Shown: positions 7,127-37,471 of the stretch, in pieces | Layout of the letters: each line of letters opens with the position of its first letter | Position numbering within the stretch: the first letter of the stretch is position 1 | Origin: an uncultured Armatimonadota bacterium | GTDB taxonomy: Bacteria > Armatimonadota > Fimbriimonadia > Fimbriimonadales > Fimbriimonadaceae | Reading direction: 5' to 3' | Length of the DNA: 64,000 nt | NCBI GenBank assembly: GCA_903927345.1 | Contig: CAIYMO010000019.1 | Location: 1-64,000 of the forward strand | Position numbers and translations under genes: made by a program | Notes under the pieces: model-generated | Databases searched by the model: none | Told to the model about the DNA's origin: nothing | The model's input: only the letters and a program-made list of their open reading frames with translations

Positions 7127-8185
7127 CTAAGATGAGCGGGAATAAATCGGTGCTGGACCAAGCGTGGTTCCGGGGATGAGCTCGGTTTTGACCTTGAGAA
7201 CTTTGTTCTCAGGTTGCTTGCCATCAACAAGTTGATTGATCAGGGCAAGTGTCGCGGTTGCAAGTTCTTCGGTGTCGGCCAAGACTGACGCGGCTTCGTG
7301 CGAGGTTGCCGACGGCCAGTGGATTCCGTCATAGCCCACAACGGAGAACTTATTGGGAATTGACCAGTCAAGTTCGTTGCACGCCTGAAGAAGGGAGTAA
7401 GCCAGGAAGTCTCTCCAGCAGAAAATAGCCGTCGGACGATTCGCCGCTTCCCACAGACTGGGTAGGTCTTCGGCCAACCGAGCCGGGTCGGCCTCAACGG
7501 CCGCGGGTTCAAGTAGCTCGATTCCGAATCCTAGCAGCGCGGTCCGAAGCGCCTGGATTCGAATCTCGGCGTCACGGACTGTGGGGCCGACTTCAATGAG
7601 CGGAAGAATTTTGGTGTGACCGAGCTCGTGGAGACGCTTCGCAACCATCCCGAGCCCTTCAACCGGATCGTCTGAAACCGAAGGAAGCACTCCGCTCGGG
7701 TCCGATGAGTAGATCAGAACGGTAGGCAGTCGAGACCCTCGCAGAAGGTGAAGCAAAGGGTCGTCCGCAAAAGGTGCGAAGAGAATGACCGCATCGGCAG
7801 TTCCGCCATTCAAGAATTGATAGGTGGCCTCCGGTGAGCGATTGAAGTTCGTGTGAACCAAAACGTCGTACCCGGCCTCTCCAGCAGCAACCTCGATCAT
7901 CGCTGCAAGACGGTCCATGAAGAGGTCCCCGAGGGTGCGCATTCGGAAGGCGTTGTAGAAGGAGATGACGTTCGTTCGTCCGCTCTTGAGAGAGCGGACC
8001 AGAAGGTTGGGTGTGTAGTCCAACTGCAAGGCCGCATCTTGGACGCGTCGCTGGGTGTCGTCAGCGATGCGGAGTTCCTCGCTTCGGCCGTTCAAGATCG
8101 AGGACGCAGTCGAAACGGAAACACCGGCAAGTTCTGCAACGTTTGCCAGAGTCGTTCTCTTTCTTCCCTCAATTTTGTTTGCCAT
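7127..8185 (-). CDS. LacI-family transcriptional regulator
   Basis: A 352-aa repressor. Residues 11-60 hold the LacI helix-turn-helix (TTLANVAELAGVSVSTASSILNG) and hinge helix (LDYTPNLLVRSLKSGRT). The rest is a periplasmic-binding-like sugar sensor domain (e.g. VVGYDGIHWPSATSHEAASVLAD near residue 290). It is divergent from a GH30 glycosidase with a LacI-type palindrome between them, so it probably represses that gene and perhaps itself in response to a sugar. Downstream on the same strand are the prepilin-like and small membrane genes, which it may also co-regulate. The specific ligand cannot be read from the sequence. Confidence 0.9.
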   Translation of the reverse strand: MANKIEGRKRTTLANVAELAGVSVSTASSILNGRSEELRIADDTQRRVQDAALQLDYTPNLLVRSLKSGRTNVISFYNAFRMRTLGDLFMDRLAAMIEVAAGEAGYDVLVHTNFNRSPEATYQFLNGGTADAVILFAPFADDPLLHLLRGSRLPTVLIYSSDPSGVLPSVSDDPVEGLGMVAKRLHELGHTKILPLIEVGPTVRDAEIRIQALRTALLGFGIELLEPAAVEADPARLAEDLPSLWEAANRPTAIFCWRDFLAYSLLQACNELDWSIPNKFSVVGYDGIHWPSATSHEAASVLADTEELATATLALINQLVDGKQPENKVLKVKTELIPGTTLGPAPIYSRSS

Positions 8186-23100: not shown

Positions 23101-23634
23101 CGAGACGACCTACGTGAGCGACTCGAGAAGAGGACCGCGGACCTAAGACTTGAACGCCAGCTTCAGCGCGGAGTACCGCGAGTTGTAGCAGGCTCGCTGA
23201 TTGTTCCAATCGGTTTGCTTAATCAGCTCCAGGACGGTGTCAAGGTTCCAGATCACCACGCAAAGGAGACCAAGCGCATCGAGCTTTTGGCAATGCAGGC
23301 CGTGATGCAAACTGAGATTCAAAACGGCCATACGCCAATAGATGTGAGCGCCGACAAGCGGGGCTACGATATCGAGTCAATACGCTCCGATGGTTCCATC
23401 AGATTCATTGAGGTGAAGGGAAGGATTCACGGTTCTGATACAGTTACCGTTACAAAGAATGAAGTCTTGACTGCACTGAACAAACCAGATGACTACTACT
23501 TGGCAGTTGTAATCATCAATGGCGATACGGTTGGCGAGCCACTCTACGTTCAACGTCCGTTCAGGAAGGAACCCGAATTCTTTATGACGACGATCACTTG
23601 CAAGATACGAGATTTGGTTTCAGCCGCCCAGTAA
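20140..23634 (+). CDS. SNF2-type helicase with C-terminal DUF3883 domain (Hma-like helicase)
   Basis: A 1164-aa protein. Residues ~110-300 form the first helicase lobe, with Walker A DDPGAGKT (~131-138), DEAH in VCDEAHKMSA (~231) and LLTATPHNG. The second lobe (~500-620) has motif V/VI: ATDAAGEGINLQ and QRFGRIHRIGQ. Coiled-coil stretches occur around 390-490 and 965-1010. The C-terminal ~100 residues (GYDIESIRSDGSIRFIEVKGR) form a DUF3883 domain, a PD-(D/E)XK-like fold. The layout matches the helicase of helicase-methylase-ATPase loci and resembles DrmD of DISARM. It opens an operon running to 37471; the ATG follows a GAGG ribosome-binding site. Confidence 0.9.
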   Translation: MAKLEELTKGALAKGILGGDVVTVVDTKWHGSDVVEVFFTDQKGKADSALAYRDQEFEIEILEPSSRWSFTGDGEMFRLAMEAMRIQMAHHFDPYLAVNTSLVIPLPHQITAVYEEMLTRQPLRYLLADDPGAGKTVMTGLLIKELIARGDLNRCMIVAPGSLVEQWQDELWRKFGLRFEILTNDQYENAPTGNWFSEKNLIICRLDKLSRNEAIQEKLKACDWDLIVCDEAHKMSATYFGGEVKYTKRYRLAQTLSSITRHFLLLTATPHNGKDADFQLFMALLDGDRFEFVARDGVHQADPSDLMRRMVKEQLLKFDQTPLFPERLAYTVAYSLSPGEAQLYSEVTDYVRDQFNLAEKLTNQGRNNVGFALTSLQRRLASSPEAICQSLKRRKERLEKKLREEELIRRGHQQSIDLSNLVGVHFDDEDPEGYDDLPEEEREQTEARVIDEASASQTIEQLKAEIEILKRLENLAKEVRNSGTDRKWDELSNILQDRREMFDEAGARRKLVIFSEHRDTLNYLEQKIGSALGRPECVVVIHGAMGREERRNAQQRFTQDKDALILIATDAAGEGINLQRAHLMVNYDLPWNPNRLEQRFGRIHRIGQTEVCHLWNLVAAETREGDVYKKLLDKIEEERIALGGQVFDVLGQLMFGDQPLWQLLRDAVRYGDDPETKKRLFEKVEGALDTEILKDLLNSRALVDEAMDASTVRRVREDMERADARRLQPHFIESFFLRAFVLLGGSIKEREGRRYEITHVPVGVRRRDREIGTGDAVQPKYERVTFERDLVTVQGRPLAAFLCPGHPLLDAVISLIIERHRDVLKQGAILIDEMDDSDTPRALVALEHEITDGRRDGGGNRRIVSKKFGFVELTSEGDSRQAGTAPYLDYRPASDVELGCLSGLASSPWLGQGLEESAISYAARELVPNHFADVKSHREVWVDKAIAAVHERLTSAINYWDNRAEELRLKEQAGKQPKLNSDKARQRRDDLRERLEKRTADLRLERQLQRGVPRVVAGSLIVPIGLLNQLQDGVKVPDHHAKETKRIELLAMQAVMQTEIQNGHTPIDVSADKRGYDIESIRSDGSIRFIEVKGRIHGSDTVTVTKNEVLTALNKPDDYYLAVVIINGDTVGEPLYVQRPFRKEPEFFMTTITCKIRDLVSAAQ

Positions 23635-23643
23635 TCGACAACG

Positions 23644-26600
23644 ATGCTTCCAACGTACTTTTCGAGAGTTCAAGCCGAAACTGCCAAGCGATGGGACCAA
23701 CTGGACTCTGATCCAGAGTTGGCCGCACCGTGGAAGCAGCTATTTAGACAAGTCCAGAGTCCTCGTCATGTGTTGTCTGAGCTACTGCAGAACGCGGAAG
23801 ATTCTGGCGCCTCCTGGGCACGCGCATTTGTTTCTGATGGAAAGTTCATATTTGAATACAATGGCAAGGACTTTGACGAGGATAGTTTTAGGTCGCTCTG
23901 TCGATTCGGCTACTCGAACAAGCGAAGTCTCCACACAATTGGATTTCGGGGCATAGGATTTAAGACAACGTTCAGCTTAGGGCAGGAAGTTGAAGTTGAT
24001 ACCCCATCCTTTTCGTTTGCGTTTAACGCGAAGCGCTTCACACTCCCGATATCGAGGGCGGGCATCAGGGATCAGAATTTCACCAGAATATCGGTTTTTC
24101 TTGAGTCAATCGAGAAGGAGAAAGCGATCATTGATAGTTTCAATGAGTGGCTTTCTAGCCCACTTCCGCTCATCTTTTTCGACAATCTCAAGAGTCTCCA
24201 GATCACCGATCAATTGATCGAGAAGCTTATCGACAAAGATGGACCTGTAGAGAACTCAGAGTGGGTTTATCTAAGCACGAAGCCCGATGAACTTCTACTT
24301 CGCATTTGGTCGACCGCCGAAAGCTTTCCTGACGAATGTGTCTCAGAAATACGTCAAGAGCGAGGTGACGAAGTATTCGACCCAGCCCCTTGCAAGGTGG
24401 AGTTGGTGCTGGGTGCCAGTAGTGGAAGACTTTATACAGTTCTGCCGACCAACGTGCAGCCAAACCTACCGTTCGTTTCGAATGGGCCGTTCATCCAGGA
24501 CCCTTCGAGATATCGGATCAAGGCGCCCGAATCTTCTCCAACAAACGACTGGCTCCTCAGGCGAGTGGGTGCATTAGCGAGAGATTCTGCGTTGCAGTGG
24601 CTCCAAAATGAGTCGCTTTCAATGGCTGAACGCGCAAAGGCCTACGAACTGTATCCAGACGTTTCCGAGATAGCTGGGACATCCTCGGATGCCGCCGTGG
24701 CAAGGGTGATAGTGGATGCATTCGAATGCGAGCGGTCTGTTCCTGTCTTGCTTTGTGAATCAGGAACTCTGGTGGCAGCAAACGGGGCAGTTGATGTGCC
24801 AGCCAGGCTAGTTTCGATATGGGGCTATGAAACAGCGACCAGGATTTTTAGCGCTTCAACTGAAGAATGTCTATGTTCCCAAATTACTGCCACGCAGCGG
24901 GACCGACTCGCAGGTTGGCATCTTATCGGTCGCAACGCTGAAGACAGTGTATCCAGAGTCTTAAGCCAACGAATCGATCTTCCCCACCCACTTGATGATG
25001 ACAAACTGATCGATCTTTGGGAATACGTCTATCAGATTGATCAGAATCGATGGGATCGTTATTCTCGTCGGTACTACCCGATTACCCCGATAAGCGGCGC
25101 CTCGAAGCTGATCCAGTCAAAAGCGGCTGCGTTCATTCTCGAGCGAGACTCGTCTCTCAGCGACGACGACCGAGACCTTTTACTGAAGTTTCTAGACGTT
25201 GCTGATCTTCCGTTTTTCCAAAGGCTGGACAAACTGGTTGAGGATAACCCAGAGGACGCCCGACTTCAATCTGCAAAGCAGATGCGGCCAAACGAAAGGC
25301 CAACATCTATGCAAGAGGCTTTCGAGCAAGCGAGCCGAAAGGTGTTTTCTGATCCGATCGATCTTGAGAACAGACTGGAGCTCACCCGATTCGCCGCTCG
25401 GCATCGACTCAGTCTTGACCGAGAAAGATTGACCACTTTCCGATTGCTCTCAAAAAATGGCGGGTGGATAGATGTTACGCAAGCCGTGCATCCACGAAAG
25501 CGGGACGAGAGTGACCTACTTCCCTCGTCTTGGCTAAACCACTTTGCGATTTCTGACGAATACACGGTCCGACTGGCCGAAGAAGAGGCAGAACAGTTTT
25601 GGGAGTGGCTAATCTCCAATCAGGGGGGAATACGCAGATTCCCAGCTCCACGTCAAGGAAAACAGCGGCTCTACTCCCAGGACCAGATCAACGAGGCGAT
25701 TCGCGAGCGAGGGCTGACTGTCGGTTGGGAAAAGCGATCTTCTGCTTATGAGCTTGAGGATTACGATTGGCCCGAAGAGCTGGTATCGCACTGGGAAAAC
25801 CTTGCTCAATCAGACGATGAAGTGTGGTCCCGAGTCGTTGAAGCGTTGGGTCTCGCGTTTCGATCTGACATTTCTAAGTACGCCGAGGCTCGTGCAGGAC
25901 GGGTACATGGCGCTGTAGCTCGAGATTTTCAGGCTGGCATTCCTGCAAAGTGGCTCCATCGGTTGCGAGGCTTGAAGTGTCTTATCGAGGAGCGATCCCA
26001 GATGCCGATGGAACCATCGCTTCTGCTGCGAAGGACTCCTCAAACCGAACCATTACTGCAGATCGAGAAGTTTGTCTTCCGCAACCTCGATATTCCAGAG
26101 ATGTCTCCACTTCTAGACGCACTTGGTGTTCGAAGAGAGCCGAAAGACGCGACCACGATCTTAACTCGGCTAGAGGCACTTTCAAATTCGTCCTCTCCTC
26201 CAATTACAAACCTGTTGGACCTTTACCGCGCCCTGGATGCCATAGCCTCGGCTTCAGACGACCGAAACAAGGCAGCACTGCAGGACGCATTCCAGACAAA
26301 GGCACTCGCTTTTGGAACTGATGGGAGATGGTTCCGAGCTAATGAGATTTGCCAAGGAAACGATGGTGACCTCGAAGGGTTACCAACGATACATCCCGAG
26401 CTTCGTGGACTTCGGCTTTGGGATGCAGTCCAAGTTCCAAAATTTGCGAGCTTCGAATCACAAGAAGCTTGGATCAAATCAATCAAGCCGTTCACTAGGC
26501 TGAGCGATCAGGAGCGCAAAAGGGTTCAGGTCGTTCTTGGGCATTTCCCGCGCGAAATCTATCAGCAACTGACTTGTTGGCTCAGTTGCCACGGCGAATG

Positions 26601-27771
26601 GCTGCCTCTCGACCACCTGACGTACCACTCGGTTACTCCAAGTTCGGTGAGTGGTTTGTTCAATCAAATCAAGTCAGCAACGGCAGATTTTTCGTTCGTG
26701 TCCACCAGTCTGGCGTTAGAGCTTGCTTCCTATAGGCCAAGCATCGAAGATGTAATCGAGCTAGAAGTTAGGCCGACCGATTCGATCCAGTCCGATTCGC
26801 CGATCTGGCTTGGTGCAATCGCCGAATGCATTCTCAGAATTCAAGAGAAGAGCATTGGAGAGCTGGCTCAGGATCAAGAGTCGGCTCGTCTCATGTTGAG
26901 GTCCTCTTGGGTGCCCGCATCCAAGATAAACGTAATCCCCCAGATCGATGGAGTGCAAGCTGGTCCCGAGGCGGTAAAGAAATCCCTTTGGACCGATGAA
27001 GGCGTGATCTATGTATCTGGCAGCAGTGCAGCACACCATAAAGACCTTGCTGAAACATTCGTGTCAAGGTTCCTCTCCAGAGAGATCAAAGAGGCCATCC
27101 GCGATTCCATCGGACGCGAACAGGTTTGGATCGAAGAGCGATTCGGTGCACAATTCCTTCTTGGAGCTGCCGTTCCAAGCGTGGCCGAGGTCACTATCAA
27201 AGTGATGACGGACCAGAGCGACGCCCCCCAGCCTGAGCCAGTTCGGATGGAATTGATCGGGGCCAGCACATCAGAGGGTATCACTCCTGAAGTGAAGCCA
27301 CCTGCCGAAGAAGTGGCAAACGAACCCGTAGGGCTTGATGCAGCAAACAAAGGGACCGAAAAGAAGGAACCTGCAGCAAAGCTTAGGCCCCTCCACTCAT
27401 TCTTAACCGAGAAAGGCTTTGAATGGAGTCATACCCAGAGCGTGTACTCAAATCCTCAAACAGGCGAGGTGGTCAAGCGAGAGCCTGGGGCAATCCTTCC
27501 GTGGACTAAGTTCTCACTGTCGGGCGCGGTACTCAAGCGCTTCCTCGAGACTTCGACAACTCTGAATCAGGGAATTGATATCAAAGCAGAGGCATGGATG
27601 CTCCTAGAGACTCGACCCGAGCTGTGCTGCATTGTCGGGCCAGGAGAGAACAATGATGTCTTCGTGCTCGAGGGAGATTCGTTAAAGCACCTTAGGTCGA
27701 ACGGCTGGATTTCTGTTGCTGCTACGGGATATCGACTCCGTGTTGAGGCAGACGGCCAGTCGAGTAACTAG
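23644..27771 (+). CDS. giant sacsin-type GHKL ATPase protein
   Basis: A 1375-aa protein starting nine bases after the helicase stop. The N-terminal ~200 residues carry a GHKL (Hsp90/sacsin-like) ATPase: ELLQNAEDSGA (N-box, ~46) and GFRGIGFKTTFSLG (G-box, ~100), like sacsin repeats. The rest lacks a recognised fold. It is mostly helical with scattered beta segments, a low-complexity Pro/Glu-rich linker around 1190-1245, and a compact C-terminal domain of ~120 residues with WSHTQSVYSNPQTGEV. Sacsin-like ATPases occur in bacterial defence islands but the mechanism is poorly known. It is not one of the three core Hma genes and is probably an embedded accessory. Confidence 0.85.
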   Translation: MLPTYFSRVQAETAKRWDQLDSDPELAAPWKQLFRQVQSPRHVLSELLQNAEDSGASWARAFVSDGKFIFEYNGKDFDEDSFRSLCRFGYSNKRSLHTIGFRGIGFKTTFSLGQEVEVDTPSFSFAFNAKRFTLPISRAGIRDQNFTRISVFLESIEKEKAIIDSFNEWLSSPLPLIFFDNLKSLQITDQLIEKLIDKDGPVENSEWVYLSTKPDELLLRIWSTAESFPDECVSEIRQERGDEVFDPAPCKVELVLGASSGRLYTVLPTNVQPNLPFVSNGPFIQDPSRYRIKAPESSPTNDWLLRRVGALARDSALQWLQNESLSMAERAKAYELYPDVSEIAGTSSDAAVARVIVDAFECERSVPVLLCESGTLVAANGAVDVPARLVSIWGYETATRIFSASTEECLCSQITATQRDRLAGWHLIGRNAEDSVSRVLSQRIDLPHPLDDDKLIDLWEYVYQIDQNRWDRYSRRYYPITPISGASKLIQSKAAAFILERDSSLSDDDRDLLLKFLDVADLPFFQRLDKLVEDNPEDARLQSAKQMRPNERPTSMQEAFEQASRKVFSDPIDLENRLELTRFAARHRLSLDRERLTTFRLLSKNGGWIDVTQAVHPRKRDESDLLPSSWLNHFAISDEYTVRLAEEEAEQFWEWLISNQGGIRRFPAPRQGKQRLYSQDQINEAIRERGLTVGWEKRSSAYELEDYDWPEELVSHWENLAQSDDEVWSRVVEALGLAFRSDISKYAEARAGRVHGAVARDFQAGIPAKWLHRLRGLKCLIEERSQMPMEPSLLLRRTPQTEPLLQIEKFVFRNLDIPEMSPLLDALGVRREPKDATTILTRLEALSNSSSPPITNLLDLYRALDAIASASDDRNKAALQDAFQTKALAFGTDGRWFRANEICQGNDGDLEGLPTIHPELRGLRLWDAVQVPKFASFESQEAWIKSIKPFTRLSDQERKRVQVVLGHFPREIYQQLTCWLSCHGEWLPLDHLTYHSVTPSSVSGLFNQIKSATADFSFVSTSLALELASYRPSIEDVIELEVRPTDSIQSDSPIWLGAIAECILRIQEKSIGELAQDQESARLMLRSSWVPASKINVIPQIDGVQAGPEAVKKSLWTDEGVIYVSGSSAAHHKDLAETFVSRFLSREIKEAIRDSIGREQVWIEERFGAQFLLGAAVPSVAEVTIKVMTDQSDAPQPEPVRMELIGASTSEGITPEVKPPAEEVANEPVGLDAANKGTEKKEPAAKLRPLHSFLTEKGFEWSHTQSVYSNPQTGEVVKREPGAILPWTKFSLSGAVLKRFLETSTTLNQGIDIKAEAWMLLETRPELCCIVGPGENNDVFVLEGDSLKHLRSNGWISVAATGYRLRVEADGQSSN

Positions 27772-27811: not shown

Positions 27812-28189
27812 ATGAATTCCAACGACTTCCCACTCTTTATTGATCCACCTGAGGCCCTATCCCAAGTAGTCGCTACCGAGCAACTTCGCTTGTGCCTCCG
27901 CAATGCAGCCAAGTTTGGTAAGCCGACGAAGGAGCAGGAAGTGTTTGTGTATGCGACTGAGGATCGTTTCTGTATCGAAATCGGCACGTTTCGGCACTGG
28001 TTCGAACTTGAAGGAAACTGGTCAGGATGTGTCAGTCTCAATGCTCGACTGATGCTCCAATGTCGCGGAGCGATTTCACGAAAGCAGCGTACACAAATCA
28101 AGTACGATAGGGGGTGGCTCTACCTCGACACTCTCGGCATTGGTCGAGCTGTATGGCAGCCCAAATACGACCCTGATTGGATGATTTAA
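27812..28189 (+). CDS. small protein of unknown function in the defence operon
   Basis: A 125-aa protein, 40 bp after the giant ATPase gene and 12 bp before the next. It is dominated by alternating hydrophobic beta strands (EVFVYATEDRFCIEI, GCVSLNARLML, GWLYLDTLGI). The strand pattern vaguely recalls one domain of a DNA sliding clamp, but I see no diagnostic motif, so this is only an impression. No signal peptide. Position implies co-expression with its neighbours. Confidence 0.7.
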   Translation: MNSNDFPLFIDPPEALSQVVATEQLRLCLRNAAKFGKPTKEQEVFVYATEDRFCIEIGTFRHWFELEGNWSGCVSLNARLMLQCRGAISRKQRTQIKYDRGWLYLDTLGIGRAVWQPKYDPDWMI

Positions 28190-28201
28190 CGGAGATCATG
28201 C

Positions 28202-28675
28202 ATGTTAAACACCTCAATAAACCGCATCTTCAAACTGAGCCTGATAGGCTTGATTGCGTTCTCCCTCATGGGGTTTGCTGCTCATCAGCTTACTGTTCCG
28301 TCCATCGAAGATCGGGCAGATGCGCTGTTTCGTGATTTCGACGAACTTCAACGCCTTGGTGCATATGTGGTCGGCGAAGACGGAGAAAAGCTGGGAGACA
28401 TCTCCAAGGGACTAGGGAGTGATTCGTTGGGTAACCCTTACGGAGCGGGAAACGAGTACAAGTCAAACGGTCTGTTTAACAGCTTCGGCAAGTACGGAGG
28501 GCAGTTCAACGCAACATCTGCATTCAATAGTCTTGCAACAAAGCCACCAAGCATTTTGATTCGTCGCAATGGAGATGTCTACTCCGTCGGCTTGCTCACG
28601 ACCAATAAGTTGGCTCCCACGAGGGGACAAAGAATAAACCCCTACTTGTTGAAGGCTTGGTTGCAGAGCAAATGA
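28202..28675 (+). CDS. small secreted or membrane-anchored protein in the defence operon
   Basis: A 157-aa protein starting MLNTSINRIFKLSLIGLIAFSLMG, a signal peptide or single membrane anchor. The central part is Gly/Asn/Ser-rich (DSLGNPYGAGNEYKSNGLFN) and contains KYGGQFNATSAFNSLATKPP. The GxYGxxFxxxSAxNxxAxxPP pattern recurs in small bacterial proteins of unknown role. An exported product inside a DNA-acting defence operon is unusual. Its stop overlaps the start of the decayed methylase copy (ATGA), as it would have with an intact methylase gene. Confidence 0.7.
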   Translation: MLNTSINRIFKLSLIGLIAFSLMGFAAHQLTVPSIEDRADALFRDFDELQRLGAYVVGEDGEKLGDISKGLGSDSLGNPYGAGNEYKSNGLFNSFGKYGGQFNATSAFNSLATKPPSILIRRNGDVYSVGLLTTNKLAPTRGQRINPYLLKAWLQSK

Positions 28676-28827
28676 ACTACCGTAAGAAACTCACCGAAGT
28701 CGTCTTCCCGTTGGAAGAGATCAATGCCGCGTCAGCGCGTGAGAAGTCCATTCGGCATAAGTCATCTCAGCATGCTGCACCAGTGGTGTGCCATGCGACC
28801 GCTGTCGCACAGGTGATTTTATGCTGA
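28672..28827 (+). pseudogene. decayed 5' end of a DUF1156 methylase gene
   Basis: The frame starts MNYRKKLTEVVFPLEEIN, nearly the same as the intact methylase at 29987 (four differences in the first 29 residues). After IRH one inserted base shifts the frame. In the shifted frame the family signature continues as HLSMLHQWCAMRPL, against HPSTLHLWWARRPL in the intact gene, then stops. Homology covers about 49 codons and ends where the ribosome-binding site of the next gene (AGGTGA, 28811-28816) begins. It keeps the ATGA overlap with the preceding gene, so the methylase once started here. Not a functional gene. Confidence 0.88.
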
Positions 28828-29990
28828 GTATTATGTTCAATCGGGTTGGACCCAACCATGTTTCGCTCTACGAGGTCCCGAAAAGTGCTTTCGTTACGAA
28901 ACCTGGCAAAAAGAGAAGGCACTACAAGTTTCGTCCGCTGACAGCGGCGAATCCCACCAGACTCGAATTTAAGGCCATCCAACTTGCCCACGCAATCGTT
29001 AAAGCGGACTGCTATCAACGGGACCGATTCGAGTGGTTTATGGCATGGTGCTTCCTGATTCAGCACCATCGGGTATTTGATTGGAACTCGACTGAACTGC
29101 GACTAAATCCTGGAGTCCGCAACCTCTACTTTGACTTCGTTCAGACAACATTGATCGGGCGTGTTGGAAACGGACTCACATTGCTTCTGGCCAACGAACT
29201 GGGCTATCCATTTCATGCGCATTTCGTGACATATCTTGCAAAGAACCCACCTGCTGGTGGAGTTGTACCGCCTAACAAAGCTCCTGACTTTATCTGCGGC
29301 ACTACCACTTCGCGGGCCATTTTTGAATCCAAGGGGAGTTTTCCTGGTACGGGCACGCTTGCTGATGTTAGCGCCGCCTTAAACGACGGGCTGACCCAAA
29401 TCGGCAACTGGCCAACGATCTTAGGAATTTCCAAGTCATACGCTTGTGCCTCCTATGTTCGTGAATCTGGCGATACAGACCCTGAAGGTTCGTTGACGAT
29501 CTTCGTCGACCCCGAAAGTGACAACGATCAACCAACAATTGAGTTCCCACCAGTTCGGTTGCTTCGCGAGAACTACGCAGCATGGTTTGTCGCAATGGGG
29601 CTTCCCGACGTTGCAGCAAGGCTTCGCTCTGGGGACTCAGGTAGTGGAGTGTCTCACCGCTTCGTGATCTATCGATACGACCCTAACATCGGGGAGAGAA
29701 AGTCCATTGCGTTCCCCAGCGATCATGTTGCTGATCATGAAGTCCGCGAGGCATTAGGGCGGATGTTTGAGATGCCTCGATTCGGAATTGAACTAGAAGT
29801 GCTGCTCGGCATCCCAGACCTTGCGCAAGGTCGAATACACGAGGTCTTTGGTGAGACGTTGCTTCCCGAGAGCGCGTCTCAGTCCGACACCTCAGGCGGC
29901 AGCTACAGTCTGTTTCCTGACGGCACATTCCTTGGCGCGATTCCTCGCTTATCCGTGGCTAATCCCGACTTCATCGAGATAATACTATGA
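28821..29990 (+). CDS. PD-(D/E)XK-like protein embedded in the Hma-like operon
   Basis: A 389-aa protein from the ATG at 28821, which follows AGGTGA; the GTG at 28788 would lie within the decayed methylase copy. Residues 154-172 carry KAPDFICG...AIFESKGS, fitting the Asp...Glu-x-Lys core of PD-(D/E)XK nucleases, preceded by a helix (GNGLTLLLANELGYPF). No other domain is recognised. The ATG of the intact methylase overlaps its stop (ATGA). Either an effector nuclease or a recognition module is plausible. The scar just upstream suggests it entered the operon later than the core genes. Confidence 0.75.
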   Translation: MLSIMFNRVGPNHVSLYEVPKSAFVTKPGKKRRHYKFRPLTAANPTRLEFKAIQLAHAIVKADCYQRDRFEWFMAWCFLIQHHRVFDWNSTELRLNPGVRNLYFDFVQTTLIGRVGNGLTLLLANELGYPFHAHFVTYLAKNPPAGGVVPPNKAPDFICGTTTSRAIFESKGSFPGTGTLADVSAALNDGLTQIGNWPTILGISKSYACASYVRESGDTDPEGSLTIFVDPESDNDQPTIEFPPVRLLRENYAAWFVAMGLPDVAARLRSGDSGSGVSHRFVIYRYDPNIGERKSIAFPSDHVADHEVREALGRMFEMPRFGIELEVLLGIPDLAQGRIHEVFGETLLPESASQSDTSGGSYSLFPDGTFLGAIPRLSVANPDFIEIIL

Positions 29991-32900
29991 ACTACCGTAA
30001 GAAACTGATCGAGGTCGCGCTTCCGCTGGAGGAGATTAATGTTGCTTCCGCGCGGGAGAAGTCGATTCGGCATGGCCATCCCAGCACGTTGCACCTTTGG
30101 TGGGCGCGGCGACCGCTGGCGACTTGCAGGGCAGTTCTGTTCAGCTCAATCATTGACGACCCAGGTGAAGAGGGCGTTCCTCAGGAACTGTTGGATCAGA
30201 TCGATCAACTGCCACTTGACCGAAAGTATCGGAACCTAGCCAGCGACGAGTTGGATGTCACGAGCGGAGAAGCGCTAAGCGACGAAGAAGCTGAGCGAAT
30301 CAAGGTCGCTCGAGAGCGTCGGTACAGACTATTTACGTTCATCGAGCGGTTGGTCCAGTGGGAAAACTCTAACGATGAGGACACTCTCACCATCGCTCGA
30401 GACTTGATCAATGCAGCGACAGGTGGAAACCCGCCGCCCGTCCTCGATCCATTCTGCGGTGGTGGTTCCATCCCACTCGAAGCTCAACGCTTGGGGTTAG
30501 AGGCCCACGGCAGCGATCTCAACCCAGTCGCTGTGCTCATCACCAAAGCGATGATCGAGATTCCACCTAAGTTTGCAGGTCAACCGCCTGTCAATCCACT
30601 AGCTCAAGCAAACCTGGGGCTTTCGAAGCCACTTCCACCCGAAACAGAAGACTTTGAAATCATTAATGAGTTCGGCCATACCTTTGATGTCAAGGCCGCC
30701 TTCAACGGAAAAGACGCCGTCGAACTCCATGAAATGGCAAAGGCAATGGAGGAGTCCTGGAACGAAGTTGGAGTCTGGCAAGGCACATTAGATGAACTGC
30801 GAGGGGCGATGATCTTCTTCCTCCGCCAGCAGCGTCACTGGGGAGAGAACCCGACACCTGGTACCGATCGCTACGTACTGTTCACAACATTGCACCAGGC
30901 TATCCGTGAGGCTTGGAGTCGAACATCTTCCACACAGGCCGCTCCATCTTTGCCAATGAACGTCACTTTTAGGGGAGCTCAAGGGCTCGCCGAGGATGTC
31001 CGCTACTACGGGCAGTGGATACGCGATGAAGCCGAAAGTCGAATCGGGCATCTCTATCCCAAGGTAGTGATCACTGCTGAAATGGCCGAGAATCGTCCTG
31101 AACTCAAAGAGTTGGTCGGAGATGAGCTAACCGTGATCGCGTGGCTATGGGCAAGGACCGTACCGAGTCCTGACCCAGCAGCTCAGGGTGCGCATGTTCC
31201 TCTGGTGCGTTCCTTCGATCTGAGTAGCAAGAAAGGCAAAGAGGCTTGGATCGAACCAATTGTCGATCCAGTGAGCATGTCTTACAAGTTTGAAGTGCGC
31301 ACACCAAAATCGCATCCAGAATCGAAAGCTTCAGAAGGAACGATTGGCAGACAGGGGGGCAAATGTTTGCTGACGGGAAGTCCGATGTCCTTTGAGCATA
31401 TTCGCACTCTTGCGAAGGGTGGACAAATGAACCATCGATTGATGGCGATTGTGGCTGAAGGAGTCAGGGGTCGAATTTACCTCCCACCTTCGAAGGTACA
31501 AGAAGAAATCGTACGTGAGTTGCCAGAGATCGAACCTCCGACGAGTCACTTGCCTGAAAAAGCGCTCGGCTTTCGAGTTCAAGCCTATGGAATGTCTCGG
31601 CATTCTGATCTATTCACGAGTCGGCAGTTGGTGGCATTGACAACGTTTGGTGACTTAGTTAGCGCGGTGAGAGAGCGGGTACTAGACGACGCCATATCTG
31701 CAGGCAAAGACCATGCTAATGCTGCAGCCTACGCGAACGCGATCAGCACTTATCTAGCGTTTGCCGCCGACAAAGGTGCGGACTATTGGTCTTCGCTTTG
31801 CAGCTGGCACTCTTCACGAGAGCTGATAAGAAACACTTTTGGTAGACAAGCGATCCCAATGGTTTGGGACTTCGCAGAGTGCAATCCGATGAGTGAGTCA
31901 ACAGGCAACTGGATGGCCTGCATTGATTGGGTATGGAAAGCGCTGAAACATGCACCCGCTGCACGACAAGGCATCTCAGAGCAGGCGGACGCAACGAAAC
32001 AGACGAAAATGCCTTACCTGTTCAGCACCGACCCGCCTTACTTTGACAACATCGGTTATGCAGATTTGAGTGATTACTTCTATGTGTGGTTGCGACGTTC
32101 GTTGGGTGTTGTCTATCCAGATTTGTTTACTACCGTGGTAACCCCAAAATCCGATGAGTTGATCGCAACCCCATATCGTCATGAAGGGAGCAAAGAGAAA
32201 GCGACACAATTCTTCGAGAATGGTCTGAGGCAAGTTTTTGCAAGGATGCGGGACCAAGGATTGCCCGAGTTTCCGACCACAATTTACTACGCGTTCAAAC
32301 AGAGTGAGACCGAAGAAAGTGAAGACAATGTAGCTTTCGAAACTGCCTCGACGGGTTGGGAAACGATGCTCCAGGGATTGGTGGACTCTGGATTCGCGAT
32401 CAACGGAACATGGCCAACTCGGACGGAGCTTGCTAATCGCATGGTTGCCTCGGGAACCAACGCGCTAGCCTCCTGCATTGTTCTCGTGTGCAGACAAAGA
32501 CCAGTCAATGCTGAGCCGATCAATCGACGTCAGTTTATGAGCCTTCTCCGTCAGGAACTGAAGCCCGCACTGATCAAGCTCACCCAGGGCAACGTCGCAC
32601 CAGTCGACCTCGCCCAGGCGGCAATCGGTCCAGGTATGGCCGTTTTCAGCCGCTACAAGTCAGTTCTTGAGGCCGATGGCACTCCCATGCGGGTCCGCAC
32701 GGCGCTGACGCTCATCAACCAAGGTCTTGACGAAGCGCTTGCGGAGCAGGAAGGCTGGTACGACGCCCAAACTCGTTGGGCAGTGACCTGGTTCCAGCAA
32801 AGAGGATTTGATGAGGGTCCCTATGGAGATGCCGAAATCCTGGCGACCGCCAAAGACGCTCCTGTGACAACAATGGTCGAAGCAGGAATCGTAAAGTCGG

Positions 32901-33304
32901 GCGGAGGCAAAGTAAAGCTCCTCAGCCGCGAAGAACTCCCCGTTGATTACGATCCTGAAACTGACCCGCGCACCACGGTATGGGAAGCAACTCAGTACCT
33001 GGTTCGAGAACTGGAGGTCAACGGCGAGCTTGGTGCAGCAAGAATGATGCGTCGCTTCCGAGAAACGAAGCCCGAAGTCGAGATTGACCGTGGCCGAGAG
33101 CTGGCATACCGCCTCTACGCGATCTGCGACGGCAAGCGCTGGACCAACGAAGCCCGCGGCTACAACGCCCTAGTTTTGAGCTGGAGCGACATCGAGGCTG
33201 TCTCCCAAACCGACGACGCCCTGTGGGGCGCCTCAGTTTCGGCTGGACCAGGAACGGGTCCGAAGAGAAACGAAACTCCAAGCTTCGAGGGCATGACTGA
33301 CTGA
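29987..33304 (+). CDS. DUF1156 DNA methyltransferase (Hma-like methylase)
   Basis: A 1105-aa protein. The N-terminus MNYRKKLIEVALPLEEIN and HPSTLHLWWARRPLA (~29-43) are DUF1156 signatures. The methyltransferase has the SAM motif DPFCGGGSIPLEA near residue 153 and catalytic DPPYFDN near 682, an amino-methylase (N6-adenine or N4-cytosine) type. A Cys-containing insert with CLLTGSPMSFEHIR lies between them. The C-terminal part (TVWEATQYLVRELEVNGELGAARMMRR) is also typical. Probably modifies host DNA to mark self. Start overlaps the PD-(D/E)XK gene stop (ATGA). Length is normal for the family. Confidence 0.92.
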   Translation: MNYRKKLIEVALPLEEINVASAREKSIRHGHPSTLHLWWARRPLATCRAVLFSSIIDDPGEEGVPQELLDQIDQLPLDRKYRNLASDELDVTSGEALSDEEAERIKVARERRYRLFTFIERLVQWENSNDEDTLTIARDLINAATGGNPPPVLDPFCGGGSIPLEAQRLGLEAHGSDLNPVAVLITKAMIEIPPKFAGQPPVNPLAQANLGLSKPLPPETEDFEIINEFGHTFDVKAAFNGKDAVELHEMAKAMEESWNEVGVWQGTLDELRGAMIFFLRQQRHWGENPTPGTDRYVLFTTLHQAIREAWSRTSSTQAAPSLPMNVTFRGAQGLAEDVRYYGQWIRDEAESRIGHLYPKVVITAEMAENRPELKELVGDELTVIAWLWARTVPSPDPAAQGAHVPLVRSFDLSSKKGKEAWIEPIVDPVSMSYKFEVRTPKSHPESKASEGTIGRQGGKCLLTGSPMSFEHIRTLAKGGQMNHRLMAIVAEGVRGRIYLPPSKVQEEIVRELPEIEPPTSHLPEKALGFRVQAYGMSRHSDLFTSRQLVALTTFGDLVSAVRERVLDDAISAGKDHANAAAYANAISTYLAFAADKGADYWSSLCSWHSSRELIRNTFGRQAIPMVWDFAECNPMSESTGNWMACIDWVWKALKHAPAARQGISEQADATKQTKMPYLFSTDPPYFDNIGYADLSDYFYVWLRRSLGVVYPDLFTTVVTPKSDELIATPYRHEGSKEKATQFFENGLRQVFARMRDQGLPEFPTTIYYAFKQSETEESEDNVAFETASTGWETMLQGLVDSGFAINGTWPTRTELANRMVASGTNALASCIVLVCRQRPVNAEPINRRQFMSLLRQELKPALIKLTQGNVAPVDLAQAAIGPGMAVFSRYKSVLEADGTPMRVRTALTLINQGLDEALAEQEGWYDAQTRWAVTWFQQRGFDEGPYGDAEILATAKDAPVTTMVEAGIVKSGGGKVKLLSREELPVDYDPETDPRTTVWEATQYLVRELEVNGELGAARMMRRFRETKPEVEIDRGRELAYRLYAICDGKRWTNEARGYNALVLSWSDIEAVSQTDDALWGASVSAGPGTGPKRNETPSFEGMTD

Positions 33305-33306
33305 AA

Positions 33307-34152
33307 ATGAATGAAACGATCAAACTAGAAGAAGTGGCTCTCCCCGCGGAGGCTCAAGTGCAAGCGACACCAGAGATGAGCCTCTCAGGTCAGGCTTTTT
33401 TTCGTAGGCAAACAGAATGGTTGCAAGAAACTCGATTGATGGCTGAAGCAATCTACAGGCTGCGATTGCAACGAAAGACCGAAACGTTCCTTAGGTTTCT
33501 CCCAAGGGCGTGGCCCAAAAAGAATCTCGATCCGAACGTCTCAAATTTCATAATGAGTCAGCAGCAGATCGACTTGCAGCTCAAGGGACTTCTCCCGCGG
33601 ATGTTGGAATCTCGGTTTATTTTTCTCGAAACTCTTTGGGAAGCTTATCTTTCTGATCTAGTGGTCGAACTGAGTCACGAAAGTGGCTCATTCTTCGAGG
33701 AGGCCCTCAAAGATACTTCCATTCCCAGTGAACTGGTGAGGCGGGCATTGACTGATAAATATTCGACCATCGAAGAGCTTCAGAGGGACATTGGAGTGGT
33801 GTTCGCAGAGAGAACGACAAGATCATCGTTCCGAGAGCAGTGGAAAAGACTCGCTCAATTGGTAAAAGCACTCGGCAAAACGGACCCCTCCGACCAGTGG
33901 TTTCACGATCTTGAAGTCTATTTCTGCATGAGAAACTGCGTCATACATCGACAATGTTTAGTCTCTGTACAACTAGCCGAGGCAAGTGAGGCCTTCAAGG
34001 ACAAGGGTGGTCAAAGATTCCAAATCAGTCCAAGCGACTTGGACTACTTCCGACACTCGTTCATTGCCTGCATAACCCACATCGAGACAAAGCTGCAGGC
34101 GTTTTTTGCAGCCAAAGCACAGGAACAACAGAATCAAAATGGCACTCAGTAA
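33307..34152 (+). CDS. HEPN-domain-like protein embedded between methylase and ATPase
   Basis: A 281-aa, largely helical protein. Near residues 206-215 is MRNCVIHRQ, matching the R-x4-H motif (with Asn after Arg) of HEPN nucleases, placed in a long helix as in that superfamily. The N-terminal region (~40-110) is Arg/Lys-rich. It starts two bases after the methylase stop and its 3' end overlaps the ATPase start by 14 bp. HEPN proteins often cut RNA, including in toxin and defence roles, so an RNase effector is plausible. Non-catalytic HEPN domains also exist. Confidence 0.7.
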   Translation: MNETIKLEEVALPAEAQVQATPEMSLSGQAFFRRQTEWLQETRLMAEAIYRLRLQRKTETFLRFLPRAWPKKNLDPNVSNFIMSQQQIDLQLKGLLPRMLESRFIFLETLWEAYLSDLVVELSHESGSFFEEALKDTSIPSELVRRALTDKYSTIEELQRDIGVVFAERTTRSSFREQWKRLAQLVKALGKTDPSDQWFHDLEVYFCMRNCVIHRQCLVSVQLAEASEAFKDKGGQRFQISPSDLDYFRHSFIACITHIETKLQAFFAAKAQEQQNQNGTQ

Positions 34153-37100
34153 CAAGGAACGGATCGGACGGCTGTTGGACTCACTGAAGAGTGAGTTGCG
34201 CACGTACGTCGAACAAGAGCTGCGAGATGTCTATGCCGACGACTGGGGCAAGCATGTTACTCCAGGGGAAGGTGAGCTGGATATACAGCGCCTTTGTAAT
34301 ACCATCTTGGCGAAGTGGGATGATGTGTTCGAACCGCTTCTCGATGCACGAAGCAAAGAGTTTAAAAACCTCGTCCATGAGGTTCGCAAGTGGCGCAACA
34401 AGGTCGCTCATCAGGAGCCTTTCAATGCTGACGAGACCATCAACGCTCTGATTGATCTCCAGAAATTCTGCGAGTACATTCAGTCTCCATTGGCTGAAGA
34501 GGCCGAGAGATCAAAACTGGAGGTCATGCGTGCGCAGTTTGAGAGCGGTGCGAAGAAGGAACAACGAAAGGTTTCACAGTCCACTCTAGGATTTGACATC
34601 CCTGGCCTTCGACCTTGGAGAGAAGTCGTCGTACCTCATAGCGATGTTGCAGATGGTAAGTTCCAGCAGGCCGAGTTCGCGGCTGACCTGTGGCAGGTGC
34701 ACCAGGGTGGTGGAACCGACGAGTACCGCGATCCCCATGCCTTCTTTGGTCGGACCTACCTGACCGAGGGTTTGCGAGAGCTTCTGATTAATGCCATGCG
34801 TCGCCTTCGAGGTGAGGGTGGTGACCCTGTCGTTGAACTGAAGATCAACTTTGGTGGTGGTAAGACCCACTCGATGTTGGCTCTCTATCACCTGTTCAGT
34901 GGCCAGACTAAAGCCTCGGAACTGGCGGGAGTGGAGGATGTTCTGTCAGCAGTTGGAGCAACTGATTCGCCGAGAGTTCGTCGTGCGGTCATTGTCGGAA
35001 CCGCGGTTCGGCCTGGTAGTCCGATCGTTCATACCGACGGGATCGAGACGCGGACACTGTGGGGCGAAATCGCATGGCAACTCGCTGGCCGAGAGGGCTA
35101 CGAAATCGTCCGCGATGTGGACGAAAACTCAACGAACCCTGGTGACCTTCTCGACAAACTGTTCGCTCTGGCGGGTCCTTCGTTGATCCTGATTGATGAG
35201 TGGGTCGCCTATGCTAGGCAACTTGTCAACCGCCAAAACATGCTTCCTGCAGGAGACTTCGATACTCAGTTCACGTTTGCCCAGGCGCTGTGTGAGGCAG
35301 CCAAACGAGCGAAAAATGTTCTCGTCTGCGTGAGTATCCCTGCGTCCGAGCGAGACGGCATTGTGGTCTCGACGGCTCAGGCAGGAGACACTAATGGCAA
35401 GATCGCGCTCGAGCGTCTCCAGGATGCAGTCGGTCGATCCAACATGGTTTGGCGGCCTGCAACAAGCGACGAATCCTTTGAGATTGTGCGAAGGCGACTC
35501 TTCCAACCCGTTGCAGGCGATATGATCGCGTCTCGAGATGCCACGATTCGGGAGTTCGTCGAATTTTACAGAAACAATCCAAACGACTTTCCTTCCGAGT
35601 CGCGTGAGAGTTCCTACGAGAAGCGAATGCAGGCCGCATATCCTATTCACCCTGAGCTGTTTGATCGCTTGTACTCGGATTGGTCCACACTCGAGAAGTT
35701 TCAGCGCACTCGAGGTGTCCTGAGGCTGATGGCTAGCGTAGTCCACTCGCTATGGGTTAACAATGATGGCGGCGCTCTCGTGTTGCCAGCCTCTATTCCG
35801 CTCTCTGACCCGACTGTGCAATCTGAGGTAACTCGATATCTGCCCGAATCATGGTCGGCGGTAATTGAGAAGGATGTGGACGGCCCAAGTTCTGCACCGA
35901 TGCAGCTTGACTCCACGTTTACTTCCACTTACGGACGTTTCTCAGCAGCTCGACGAGTAGCACGTACCGTTTTTCTGGGTAGCGCACCGCTCAAAGATGC
36001 GGCGACTCGGGGAATTGATGAGCTGCGGATCAAACTGGGAAGTATCCAGCCTAAGGAGACTGTCGCGACCTTTGGAGATGCGCTCGGAAAGCTGAGACAG
36101 AAGACGACCTACCTCTATGCTGATCAGAGTCGATACTGGTATCACACTCAGGCTTCCGTCTCTCGGGAGGCTCAAGACCGCGCAGATCATCTCAAACCTG
36201 AAGACGTACATCGCGAGATTGTTAATCGGCTCAGAGAGATGTTCCGTGGCTCACGGAGAGGAGAGTTTGGAGCTATCCACGTGGATGTGGCCTCCTCTGA
36301 TATTCCTGATGATCGAGAGTTGCGTCTTGTTGTGATTGGACCTGGCCATTTGCATCAGCATGGAAAATCTGAATCTTCCGCTCTTGCGAAAGCGAAGGAA
36401 ATCTACGAGTATCGTGGCTCGGCGCCAAGAGCTAACCGCAACAGAGTTGTCTTTTTGGCACTCGACGCGGGGAGATTTAGCGAGCTGGATTCCTCCGTGC
36501 GGCAGTATCTGGCTTGGACCTCGATCATTGATGATGTGATCGAGAAGCGCATTGACCTGGATAACTCAAACAAGGCAACCGCGGAGGCGAGCAGAACTCG
36601 CACGAACAGCGATGTTGGAGTGAAGCTCGGGGAAGTCACTGCTTACGCACTTGTCCCGTATCAACACGAACCACGGGGAATTCTCCAGTGGGAATCGATT
36701 AAAGTCGCAGGCGATATCACCCAACTCACCGTAAGACTTATCAAGAAACTCGAAGCAGAGCAGCATATCACCCGCACCCTAGGAGCGAACGTTCTTCGAA
36801 CGGATGTTGACCGAGTCCCGCTGTGGCGAGATGATAAGCATGTCAGTGTGGCGCAGCTTCAGGACGACTTTGCAAAGTACGTGTACCTGCCAAGACTTCT
36901 CAATGAATCCGCCCTCGTTGACGCAATCGTTAAAGGGGCAAATCCTCTTGATTTGGATAGCGGCTTTGCTTACGCAGACAACTACGACCCTGAGACCCAG
37001 TCTTATGAGCGCCTACGGTTTGCCATGTTTGATGGCGGTCGCGTCCCAACGGGGTGGTTGGTTAAACCAGGCGTGGCTCAACCGATCATCGACGCGCTTC

Positions 37101-37471
37101 TTGCGAAGCCAGAACCGACAATCGAAGTAAACGTTCCTGCGAACACGAACACTGGAGGAAGGACAGGCTTTGACAATTTCTGGGGCAGTGGAAATGTTGA
37201 GAAAGGAGCAACTCCTCCCAACCCCACAACTGGCTCGAAAAAGCGATTCCACGGATCAATAACTCTTCAGCATGATGACTTTCGGGAAAAGGCTGGCGAA
37301 GTCTCCCGAGAAATCGCAGCTCAGCTAGCCAAGGTGGTTGGCAGCAAAGTCACGATTATGGTCGAGGTGATCGCAGAAGCGCAATCAGGCTATTCAGAGG
37401 ACGTGCTCAGAGCCGTTAGCGAGAACTGTCGAACATTAAAATTCGACTCGTTTGAGTTTGAGGAAGATTAA
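34139..37471 (+). CDS. DUF499 ATPase with N-terminal Swt1-like HEPN domain (Hma-like ATPase)
   Basis: I chose the ATG giving MALSNKERIGRLLDSLKSEL because upstream codons overlap the HEPN gene. The 1110-aa protein begins with a ~130-residue helical Swt1/HEPN-like domain containing WRNKVAHQ (~85-92; R-x4-H). The P-loop ATPase follows: INFGGGKTHSML (~237-248) and Walker B SLILIDEWVAYARQL (~350). DUF499 proteins are AAA-type ATPases that accompany DUF1156 methylases. Two Gly/Asn-rich linkers precede a C-terminal helical domain. Presumed to power DNA handling with the helicase. It ends the operon. Confidence 0.9.
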   Translation: MALSNKERIGRLLDSLKSELRTYVEQELRDVYADDWGKHVTPGEGELDIQRLCNTILAKWDDVFEPLLDARSKEFKNLVHEVRKWRNKVAHQEPFNADETINALIDLQKFCEYIQSPLAEEAERSKLEVMRAQFESGAKKEQRKVSQSTLGFDIPGLRPWREVVVPHSDVADGKFQQAEFAADLWQVHQGGGTDEYRDPHAFFGRTYLTEGLRELLINAMRRLRGEGGDPVVELKINFGGGKTHSMLALYHLFSGQTKASELAGVEDVLSAVGATDSPRVRRAVIVGTAVRPGSPIVHTDGIETRTLWGEIAWQLAGREGYEIVRDVDENSTNPGDLLDKLFALAGPSLILIDEWVAYARQLVNRQNMLPAGDFDTQFTFAQALCEAAKRAKNVLVCVSIPASERDGIVVSTAQAGDTNGKIALERLQDAVGRSNMVWRPATSDESFEIVRRRLFQPVAGDMIASRDATIREFVEFYRNNPNDFPSESRESSYEKRMQAAYPIHPELFDRLYSDWSTLEKFQRTRGVLRLMASVVHSLWVNNDGGALVLPASIPLSDPTVQSEVTRYLPESWSAVIEKDVDGPSSAPMQLDSTFTSTYGRFSAARRVARTVFLGSAPLKDAATRGIDELRIKLGSIQPKETVATFGDALGKLRQKTTYLYADQSRYWYHTQASVSREAQDRADHLKPEDVHREIVNRLREMFRGSRRGEFGAIHVDVASSDIPDDRELRLVVIGPGHLHQHGKSESSALAKAKEIYEYRGSAPRANRNRVVFLALDAGRFSELDSSVRQYLAWTSIIDDVIEKRIDLDNSNKATAEASRTRTNSDVGVKLGEVTAYALVPYQHEPRGILQWESIKVAGDITQLTVRLIKKLEAEQHITRTLGANVLRTDVDRVPLWRDDKHVSVAQLQDDFAKYVYLPRLLNESALVDAIVKGANPLDLDSGFAYADNYDPETQSYERLRFAMFDGGRVPTGWLVKPGVAQPIIDALLAKPEPTIEVNVPANTNTGGRTGFDNFWGSGNVEKGATPPNPTTGSKKRFHGSITLQHDDFREKAGEVSREIAAQLAKVVGSKVTIMVEVIAEAQSGYSEDVLRAVSENCRTLKFDSFEFEED

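Follow-up and report, generated by a model that had tools for sequence, protein, structure and literature searches.

The Hma Locus and Its Genes

The window, that is, the whole 64,000-nt stretch of DNA that was analysed, contains an operon in which the HmaA helicase, the HmaB methylase and the HmaC ATPase are all matched by their PADLOC profiles. The locus is thus an Hma system by sequence, with a predicted role in defence. Two sets of cargo genes separate hmaA from hmaB, and a short remnant of hmaB lies between these sets. The features are as follows:

20140..23634, + strand: hmaA, SNF2-type helicase (PADLOC HmaA, E 0, 1637 bits)
23644..27771, + strand: first cargo, sacsin/TmtA-like ATPase (PADLOC TmtA, E 6e-49)
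27812..28189, + strand: first cargo, small ORF without a family (no Pfam or PADLOC match)
28202..28675, + strand: first cargo, small exported-looking protein (in 8 of 113 genomes of the order, the window's own among them)
28672..28807, + strand: relic of the hmaB 5' end, 45 codons, with a one-base gain at about 28759 (blastn; codon-position pattern)
28672..28827, + strand: 51-codon ORF that starts at the relic's ATG and whose TGA overlaps the start codon of the embedded gene (translation)
28808..28820, + strand: junction, containing a putative ribosome-binding site (AGGTGA, 28811-28816; sequence)
28821..29990, + strand: second cargo, the embedded gene, with a PD-(D/E)XK-like motif (relatives in G082 and on a Pantoea plasmid)
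29987..33304, + strand: hmaB, DUF1156 methylase, intact ORF (PADLOC HmaB, E 0, 1160 bits; Pfam DUF1156, 1.1e-24)
33307..34152, + strand: 281-aa ORF between hmaB and hmaC, without a family (Pfam and PADLOC profile searches)
34139..37471, + strand: hmaC, DUF499 ATPase with a Swt1-like HEPN domain (PADLOC HmaC, 1.3e-299; Pfam DUF499 and HEPN_Swt1)

Genes for sacsin/TmtA-like ATPases also lie between hmaA and hmaB in three other loci (L010, L067 and L122), and a sacsin-type gene is found by tblastn upstream of hmaB in L073. Similar sacsin-type genes, judged by eye from their N-termini, are present in L118, L119 and L126. Neither GC nor GC3 separated resident from incoming genes in the window.

A Decayed Copy of the hmaB Start

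The preliminary description of this DNA reported that about 49 codons of the methylase start occur twice. The second copy is real, but the homologous stretch comprises 45 codons: by blastn, positions 28672-28807 match 29987-30121 with 107 of 136 columns identical (79%), one gap and an E value of 1e-27. The other details of that description were borne out. The two ATGs are 1315 bp apart, the upstream copy is frameshifted by the one-base gain, and downstream of this gain the methylase signature is still legible in the shifted frame (SHLSMLHQWCAMRPLS in the relic, GHPSTLHLWWARRPLA in hmaB). The homology also ends at the ribosome-binding site of the embedded gene, extending to 28807, with AGGTGA following and the ATG at 28821. 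A third copy of the hmaB start was not found in the genome at E values up to 0.001.

The ATG of the relic overlaps the stop codon of the exported-protein gene (AAATGA), and the ATG of hmaB overlaps that of the embedded gene in the same layout (CTATGA). Read from its own ATG, the relic ends at a TGA at 28825-28827. A copy of the hmaA tail was not detected at this junction in the hmaA-tail tests; there is only a short resemblance between CACAGGTGATTTTATGC in the window and CCCAAGTGATTATAGG in G082. Both the homology and the codon-position pattern mark the upstream copy as a decayed methylase start, as first proposed, and it forms a boundary between the two cargo sets. Where an operon of this type contains a short ORF that begins like a methylase, the ORF can be a fossil rather than a gene.

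Decay and Divergence of the Relic

The relic and the hmaB of the window are sisters, with support of 99/91, in a tree of 80 rows comprising 73 hmaB starts and seven relics. The 73 starts were taken from a panel of 88; the 15 loci excluded beforehand were distant types, copies of included loci or starts with extra codons. The tree was built from 165 columns, with a bootstrap that had not converged. The relic has a branch length of 0.26 and the functional copy one of 0.096. When changes were polarised, the relic had 5, 6 and 4 at codon positions 1, 2 and 3, compared with 1, 0 and 5 in the functional copy, while 7 were unclear; for this count, 87 starts were compared by position without alignment, so that a few rows with small indels were out of register. 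By this pattern the relic has decayed as a pseudogene, and the functional hmaB has changed mainly at third codon positions. Downstream of the frameshift, 8 sites at codon positions 1 and 2 differ in the relic, a number reached in 1.4% of 662 similarly identical pairs of functional copies. Where an invariant or nearly invariant residue has changed, the change lies, as judged by eye, on the relic side.

Divergence between the two copies had been taken initially as a sign of a different donor lineage, which would have been contradicted if the copies were each other's closest relatives with clock-like divergence. They are in fact each other's closest sampled relatives. Their branches are unequal, but a single clock with only the relic unconstrained predicts such inequality, so the divergence does not support a different donor. 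Third-position differences (15 of 45) are compatible with the 11.7 expected under duplication followed by decay (P 0.17). The third-position distance of 0.44 exceeds the relic's own decay of 0.16 by 0.28, so some divergence before the event is possible. Most of the divergence between the relic and hmaB can be decay after the event, and because the two are sisters the source would be a near relative or the locus itself.

The Embedded Gene

Pfam and PADLOC searches with the embedded gene gave no match at E values up to 0.001, and no solved structure is related to it by sequence at E values up to 1. Its label as PD-(D/E)XK-like is a putative one, based on the motif D156...E169-S-K171, which is invariant in all three aligned homologues. 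A single-sequence AlphaFold model had a pLDDT of 38 and was unusable. In a congeneric genome (G082), a homologue with 37% identity lies directly between hmaA and hmaB, and no hmaB relic was detected in that interval. Another relative is carried on a Pantoea plasmid; within 9 kb of it the annotation lists no hma gene. Among viral contigs there was no hmaB match, and none of the six stretches that matched the embedded gene encodes a relative.

Scars in Other Hma Loci

Matches to a locus's own hmaB 5' end were found in 7 of 80 hmaA-hmaB intervals, six of them strong, compared with a single weak match among 80 on the minus-strand control. The seventh, L010, is not secure; it is not counted as an hmaB relic because only 15 nt (E 1.8) of its hmaB match are left when its copy of the hmaA tail is masked. 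The extra upstream hmaB starts in the other six intervals represent about four independent cases, bacterial and archaeal. The panel of 88 loci was non-random, some having been chosen for several or short DUF1156-start matches in a profile search. Relics are missing from several loci that carry two or more cargo genes, and hmaC 5' relics were absent from all 31 hmaB-hmaC gaps.

Copies of the hmaA coding tail were found in 4 of 63 intervals, compared with 3 of 63 in the control, all of the latter 27 nt or shorter. The copies comprise 76 nt at 89% identity in L010, two of 52 nt each at 92-94% in L078, 118 nt at 81% in L122 and a match of 26 nt in L098. In L010, L078 and L122, the copied hmaA 3' end precedes a later cargo. 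The clearest arrangement is that of L078, where two hmaB relics continue directly into hmaA 3' tails between three toxin-antitoxin modules; this is the only locus with secure joins of this kind. The match beside the relic in L122 (36 nt, E 2e-4) is absent from the coding-tail test, and a single clade of this relic with its hmaB was not rejected (P 0.24). The coding-tail test found no hmaA tail in the Methanothrix-type loci. An initial version of the test, which extended past the end of hmaA, gave hits in 8 of 69 intervals against 3 controls. Of these, L085, L098, L099, L104, L112 and L113 were rejected as joins, their short repeats lying mostly beyond the end of hmaA.

Two archaeal loci, L079 and L080, differ in cargo within nearly the same core genes. 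Their hmaA genes are 98.4% identical until about 40 nt before the stop, and their hmaB genes are 99.4% identical, counted from 21 nt upstream. They have in common a block of relic 1, a toxin-antitoxin module and relic 2 at about 94-95% identity. The outer cargo does not align on either strand, and its only protein matches have E values of 0.01 and 0.075 over 63 and 31 residues. Additionally, L132 has a tandem hmaB-hmaA-hmaB arrangement, which is the expected intermediate.

In a wider search of 1059 genomes, 200 had any match, and at least six of these (G000, G291, G508, G509, G349 and G556) contain a partial or broken copy on the same strand upstream of an hmaB start; many matches in the 200 genomes are to proteins other than Hma methylases, and scoring covered no more than 22-27 first-look candidates per genome. 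Another genome, G293, has a second intact hmaB. Within the Alphaproteobacteria, the class of G292, 18 of 289 genomes had a DUF1156-start match, and no second copy lay near an hmaB start among the matches listed.

An early proposal was to look for the exported-protein gene running straight into hmaB. This arrangement was not seen around the homologues in the five best of the seven other genomes that encode the protein, where no hma gene lay nearby (9-16 kb each). Nor was a locus found that has just one of the cargo sets next to a nearly identical hmaB, as expected of a parent, and a locus lacking the embedded gene yet keeping the scar was not seen among the loci examined. In G139, hmaA lies about 145 bp upstream of hmaB with no cargo, but this locus is too diverged to act as an empty site.

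Possible Origins of the Junction

The best explanation, with about an even chance of being correct, is that the relic is the boundary left where two cargo cassettes were joined in one Hma operon. Two Hma copies would have had near-identical core genes and different cargo, hmaA-[sacsin, small, exported]-hmaB and hmaA-[embedded gene]-hmaB. A crossover or deletion would then have joined the hmaB start of the first copy to the hmaA end of the second, or to the start of the embedded gene, with the product hmaA-cargo1-hmaB5'-cargo2-hmaB-hmaC. The leftover hmaB start, no longer needed, would decay. The preliminary description had likewise proposed recombination with another Hma locus that brought in the embedded gene together with the methylase. 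The layout, the arrangement in G082, the relics elsewhere and the L078 fusions favour this part of the proposal; the different donor lineage is the part that was not supported. If the recombination partner had been a clearly different Hma lineage, the copies would have diverged mostly before the event, which would agree with their 79% identity and with the third-position excess. This version is nevertheless improbable given the sister relation of the copies, the sufficiency of one-clock decay for the third positions and the concentration of changes at conserved residues on the relic side.

A second Hma locus would be unnecessary if the embedded gene had inserted at the hmaB start and duplicated a target of about 136 bp, as has been proposed for restriction-modification genes. 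Direct, sister copies of the hmaB start do flank the embedded gene, a relative of which exists outside Hma on the Pantoea plasmid, and the junction has no detectable hmaA tail; long and variable target duplications are described for restriction-modification genes in the account of PMC3031569. Duplication of an hmaB target alone would not be expected to produce the L078 relics that run into hmaA 3' tails, and the G082 homologue lies between hmaA and hmaB with no relic detected, making this origin rather unlikely for the window. It is very unlikely that selection has preserved the 5' part of the relic for a role as translational coupler or short leader ORF. The end of the 51-codon ORF does overlap the next start codon, and the ORFs of the L122 relic, of relic 2 in L080 and of the corresponding short ORF in L010 likewise end at the next start codon. 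Changes at codon positions 1 and 2 are also rarer upstream of the frameshift, with 5 of 58 against 8 of 32 downstream. However, this difference is weak (Fisher P 0.057), some 22 codons open in a new frame are by estimate unremarkable, relic 1 of Methanothrix is broken, and the early part of the window's relic has also lost the nearly invariant I8.

For the window's junction, where no hmaA tail is detectable, cassette joining rather than insertion with a duplicated target is an inference. The presence of comparable scars in a small number of unrelated microbes suggests that Hma operons can acquire defence genes when recombination takes place where their core genes begin or end. More broadly, and as a doubtful but possible extension, Hma operons might constitute a transposase-free cargo array. 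The hmaA 3' and hmaB 5' ends would serve as exchange ends for adding, stacking and swapping whole defence modules between strains, and additions would leave dated, decaying gene-end scars. In the same tentative scheme, the modules would include toxin-antitoxin pairs, CBASS, sacsin ATPases and nucleases. How embedded effector genes enter between core genes that overlap tightly can seldom be seen. Scars of this type delimit cargo additions, give their order and provide an approximate clock for them, and they predict the hmaA and hmaB ends as exchange points.

Comparison with Known Systems

The Hma systems, or Type-1 BREX-related (BR) systems, have the same core genes as the locus described here and are known to carry embedded effector genes (PMC8565338, PMC12839542). 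A route of acquisition is not seen in these accounts, and the main text of PMC12839542 mentions neither recombination nor remnants nor crossing, with duplication appearing only for a domain and in one reference title. No description of such scars was found in a literature search whose coverage was thin for subscription journals and bioRxiv preprints. Defence islands exchange cassettes by homologous recombination between conserved flanks. The Hma loci resemble them in having conserved flanks and variable cargo. In contrast to those islands, the flanks here are the coding termini of core genes that belong to the operon itself, and a decaying gene start can stay behind inside the operon after an addition.

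Restriction-modification genes, as outlined in PMC3031569 with citation of Nobusato et al. (2000) and a 2010 paper in Nucleic Acids Res., insert with a long, variable target duplication. The likeness, as far as that outline goes, lies in a defence-type gene placed between long direct copies of its target, a form able to amplify or swap by unequal crossing-over. Unlike the insertions outlined there, the repeat unit in L078 takes in the end of the core gene lying before it, and the array consists of alternating cargo and core-gene ends.

The Hma operon of the window and its methylase relic

The window operon encodes an Hma system, with HmaA, HmaB and HmaC each matched by profile. Between the core genes hmaA and hmaB lie, in order, a sacsin/TmtA-like ATPase gene, two small genes, a relic of the methylase gene hmaB and an embedded gene:

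28672-28807: relic, a decayed copy of the hmaB 5' end
28821-29990, plus strand: embedded gene, the second cargo
29987-33304, plus strand: functional hmaB

No family was matched by the embedded gene in profile searches. Its D...ESK motif is invariant in 3/3 aligned homologues, which makes the PD-(D/E)XK label plausible, not proved. HmaB carries about 110-120 residues (208-326; window 30608-30965) that are apparently absent from its relatives, and most loci show a break in the tblastn alignment at this point. Upstream of hmaA, at 18561-19982, lies a putative tyrosine recombinase-like protein, judged by eye from a motif.

The duplicate methylase start reported in the preliminary description is confirmed. 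The relic corresponds to codons 1-45 of hmaB (start at 29987), with 107 of 136 columns identical and one gap (E 1e-27); a search of the remaining genome at E up to 0.001 gave no third copy. Before a one-base gain in the relic, the two copies differ at 2, 3 and 11 sites at codon positions 1, 2 and 3, and after it at 4, 4 and 4. When polarised against 87 other methylase starts, compared by position without alignment, the changes over the three codon positions are 5/6/4 on the relic side and 1/0/5 on the functional side, with 7 ambiguous. This pattern indicates that the relic is a pseudogene and that the functional hmaB start belongs to a gene under purifying selection. The third-position differences (15/45) are near the 11.7 expected if both sides had changed at the relic's rate since duplication (P 0.17). 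Positions 1 and 2 together changed less before the frameshift (5/58) than after it (8/32; P 0.057), which gives only a hint of constraint on the earlier part of the relic.

Source of the second copy

Phylogenetically, the relic groups as sister to the functional copy (support 99/91; branch lengths 0.26 for the relic and 0.096 for the functional copy). The tree covers 165 columns, 73 hmaB starts and 7 relics, with 15 panel loci excluded beforehand, and its bootstrap was unsettled. In uncorrected pairwise identity, another panel locus, L067, comes closer to the functional copy (113/135) than the relic does (107/135), as expected because the relic has decayed. The sister relation indicates that the second copy originated within this lineage or a closely related one. 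The earlier interpretation thus holds in part: the relic is in all likelihood a recombination scar, but the claim that its divergence marks a different Hma locus of foreign lineage is unsupported. A closely related Hma copy may have been the recombination partner.

Relics in other Hma loci

Each locus of a panel of 88, enriched for relic cases, was searched for additional copies of its hmaB 5' end in the hmaA-hmaB interval where this was at least 60 bp (80 loci). Matches occurred in 7/80 intervals (the window, L010, L025, L078, L079, L080 and L122), and the minus-strand control gave one weak match. L010 was rejected as an hmaB relic, as masking its hmaA tail copy left 15 nt (E 1.8), and the count becomes 6/80. 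Because L025, L079 and L080 share one Methanothrix type, the six loci represent about four independent cases. In the profile searches alone, 200 of 1059 genomes had a DUF1156-start match; in 6 of these 200, by our own reading, the matches listed included an incomplete or disrupted copy lying upstream of an hmaB start on the same strand.

Two control searches addressed the other core genes: hmaC 5' relics were present in 0/31 hmaB-hmaC gaps, and an hmaA 5' relic preceded hmaA in 1/50 cases, a real duplicate. In this locus, L026, the first 400 nt of hmaA are repeated about 2.6 kb upstream of hmaA (64-470 and 2685; 90% over 408), apparently a scar of this type affecting a different core gene. L081 and L091 are Hma remnants with just hmaA pieces and the hmaB start.

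Some loci also carry copies of the hmaA 3' end. L078, whose genome belongs to the class of the cyanobacterium Laspinema, possesses two hmaB-start relics, each running into a 52-nt hmaA tail copy (94% and 92%); the joining sequences are identical and lie near a short common GGAA/AAGAAC stretch. In L122, drawn from the class of Methanothrix, a match of 36 nt spanning the hmaA stop (81%, E 2e-4) comes after the hmaB relic. About 1.8 kb further downstream, before a sacsin-like gene, stands a clear copy of the hmaA tail (118 nt, 81%, E 1e-26). In L010 (Neomegalonema, Pseudomonadota), the second cargo is preceded by 76 nt that duplicate the hmaA end, including the stop (89%, E 1e-20); the 15 nt preceding this tail copy resemble in-phase hmaB codons, perhaps by chance. 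A test for coding tails matched 4/63 intervals, one being a 26-nt match in L098, and its control matched 3/63, all of 27 nt or less. Directly 3' of hmaA in L122 is an apparent DUF4062 gene start, with a full copy downstream of the relic, possibly another replaced cargo.

Cargo and its probable exchange

The hmaA-hmaB distance is at least 250 bp in 57 of the 76 panel loci having both genes. The interval holds a CBASS with a patatin effector and an oligonucleotide cyclase in L062 (5243-7727), an NsnA/NsnB-like pair in L014 (4312-6539), and elsewhere Schlafen/AlbA proteins. The cargo of L078 comprises, in order, an MNT/HEPN pair, a HicB/HicA pair, and a small ORF lacking assignment with a PIN-domain protein; its hmaB has an insert of about 470 bp between query residues 365 and 382 (about 7663-8130). 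Thermus thermophilus plasmids (L151, L154, L158-L165) differ in cargo both before hmaB (a Fic gene or a short ORF) and after it (HicA/HicB, or HicB with RelE/ParE).

L079 and L080 have in common a middle block of relic, toxin-antitoxin genes and second relic, about 94-95% identical. Their hmaA genes are 98.4% identical until about 40 nt before the stop, and their hmaB genes 99.4% identical from 21 nt upstream. In contrast, the outer cargo of the two loci cannot be aligned in either orientation, and the proteins it encodes show only marginal matches. The outer positions of L079 are taken by a DUF3800 gene and a gene without assignment, while the cargo of L080 includes an ADP-ribosylglycohydrolase, a ParE-type toxin with an unassigned partner, an EVE-domain protein and, below the Pfam cut-off, an ASCH-like protein. 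The combination of near-identical core genes and middle block with non-aligning outer cargo suggests that cassettes were exchanged, with boundaries close to the hmaA end and at the hmaB copies.

Proposed mechanism and comparison with known systems

The most likely explanation of these structures is stacking by recombination between two Hma copies with different cargo. Short-homology recombination joining the hmaB start of one copy to the hmaA end of the second would yield two cargo sets in one operon, with a single intact hmaB and a useless hmaB start in between. A matching deletion in a tandem Hma pair could give the same product. In Laspinema, locus L132 (8375-19000) is a tandem hmaB-hmaA-hmaB and is likely to be such an intermediate; identity between its hmaB copies is 95-98% over two long segments and 76-86% over two shorter segments. 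Once repeats were present, ordinary homologous recombination could add, drop or swap cassettes. At the window junction no hmaA tail was found, and CACAGGTGATTTTATGC shows only a resemblance to the hmaA stop region preceding the homologous gene in a congeneric genome, G082; this junction may alternatively have formed by insertion with long target duplication.

The recurrence of comparable scars in bacteria and archaea raises the interest of the one in the window. The Hma system (PMC8565338) and embedded effectors in BREX and BR (Hma) loci (PMC12839542) have been described. The route of cargo entry is not stated in the examined parts of either paper, and the terms recombination, remnant and crossing are absent from the main text of PMC12839542. 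No reports of such scars were found in the literature searched. The nearest known kind of event, cited in PMC3031569, is insertion of restriction-modification (RM) genes with long target duplication.
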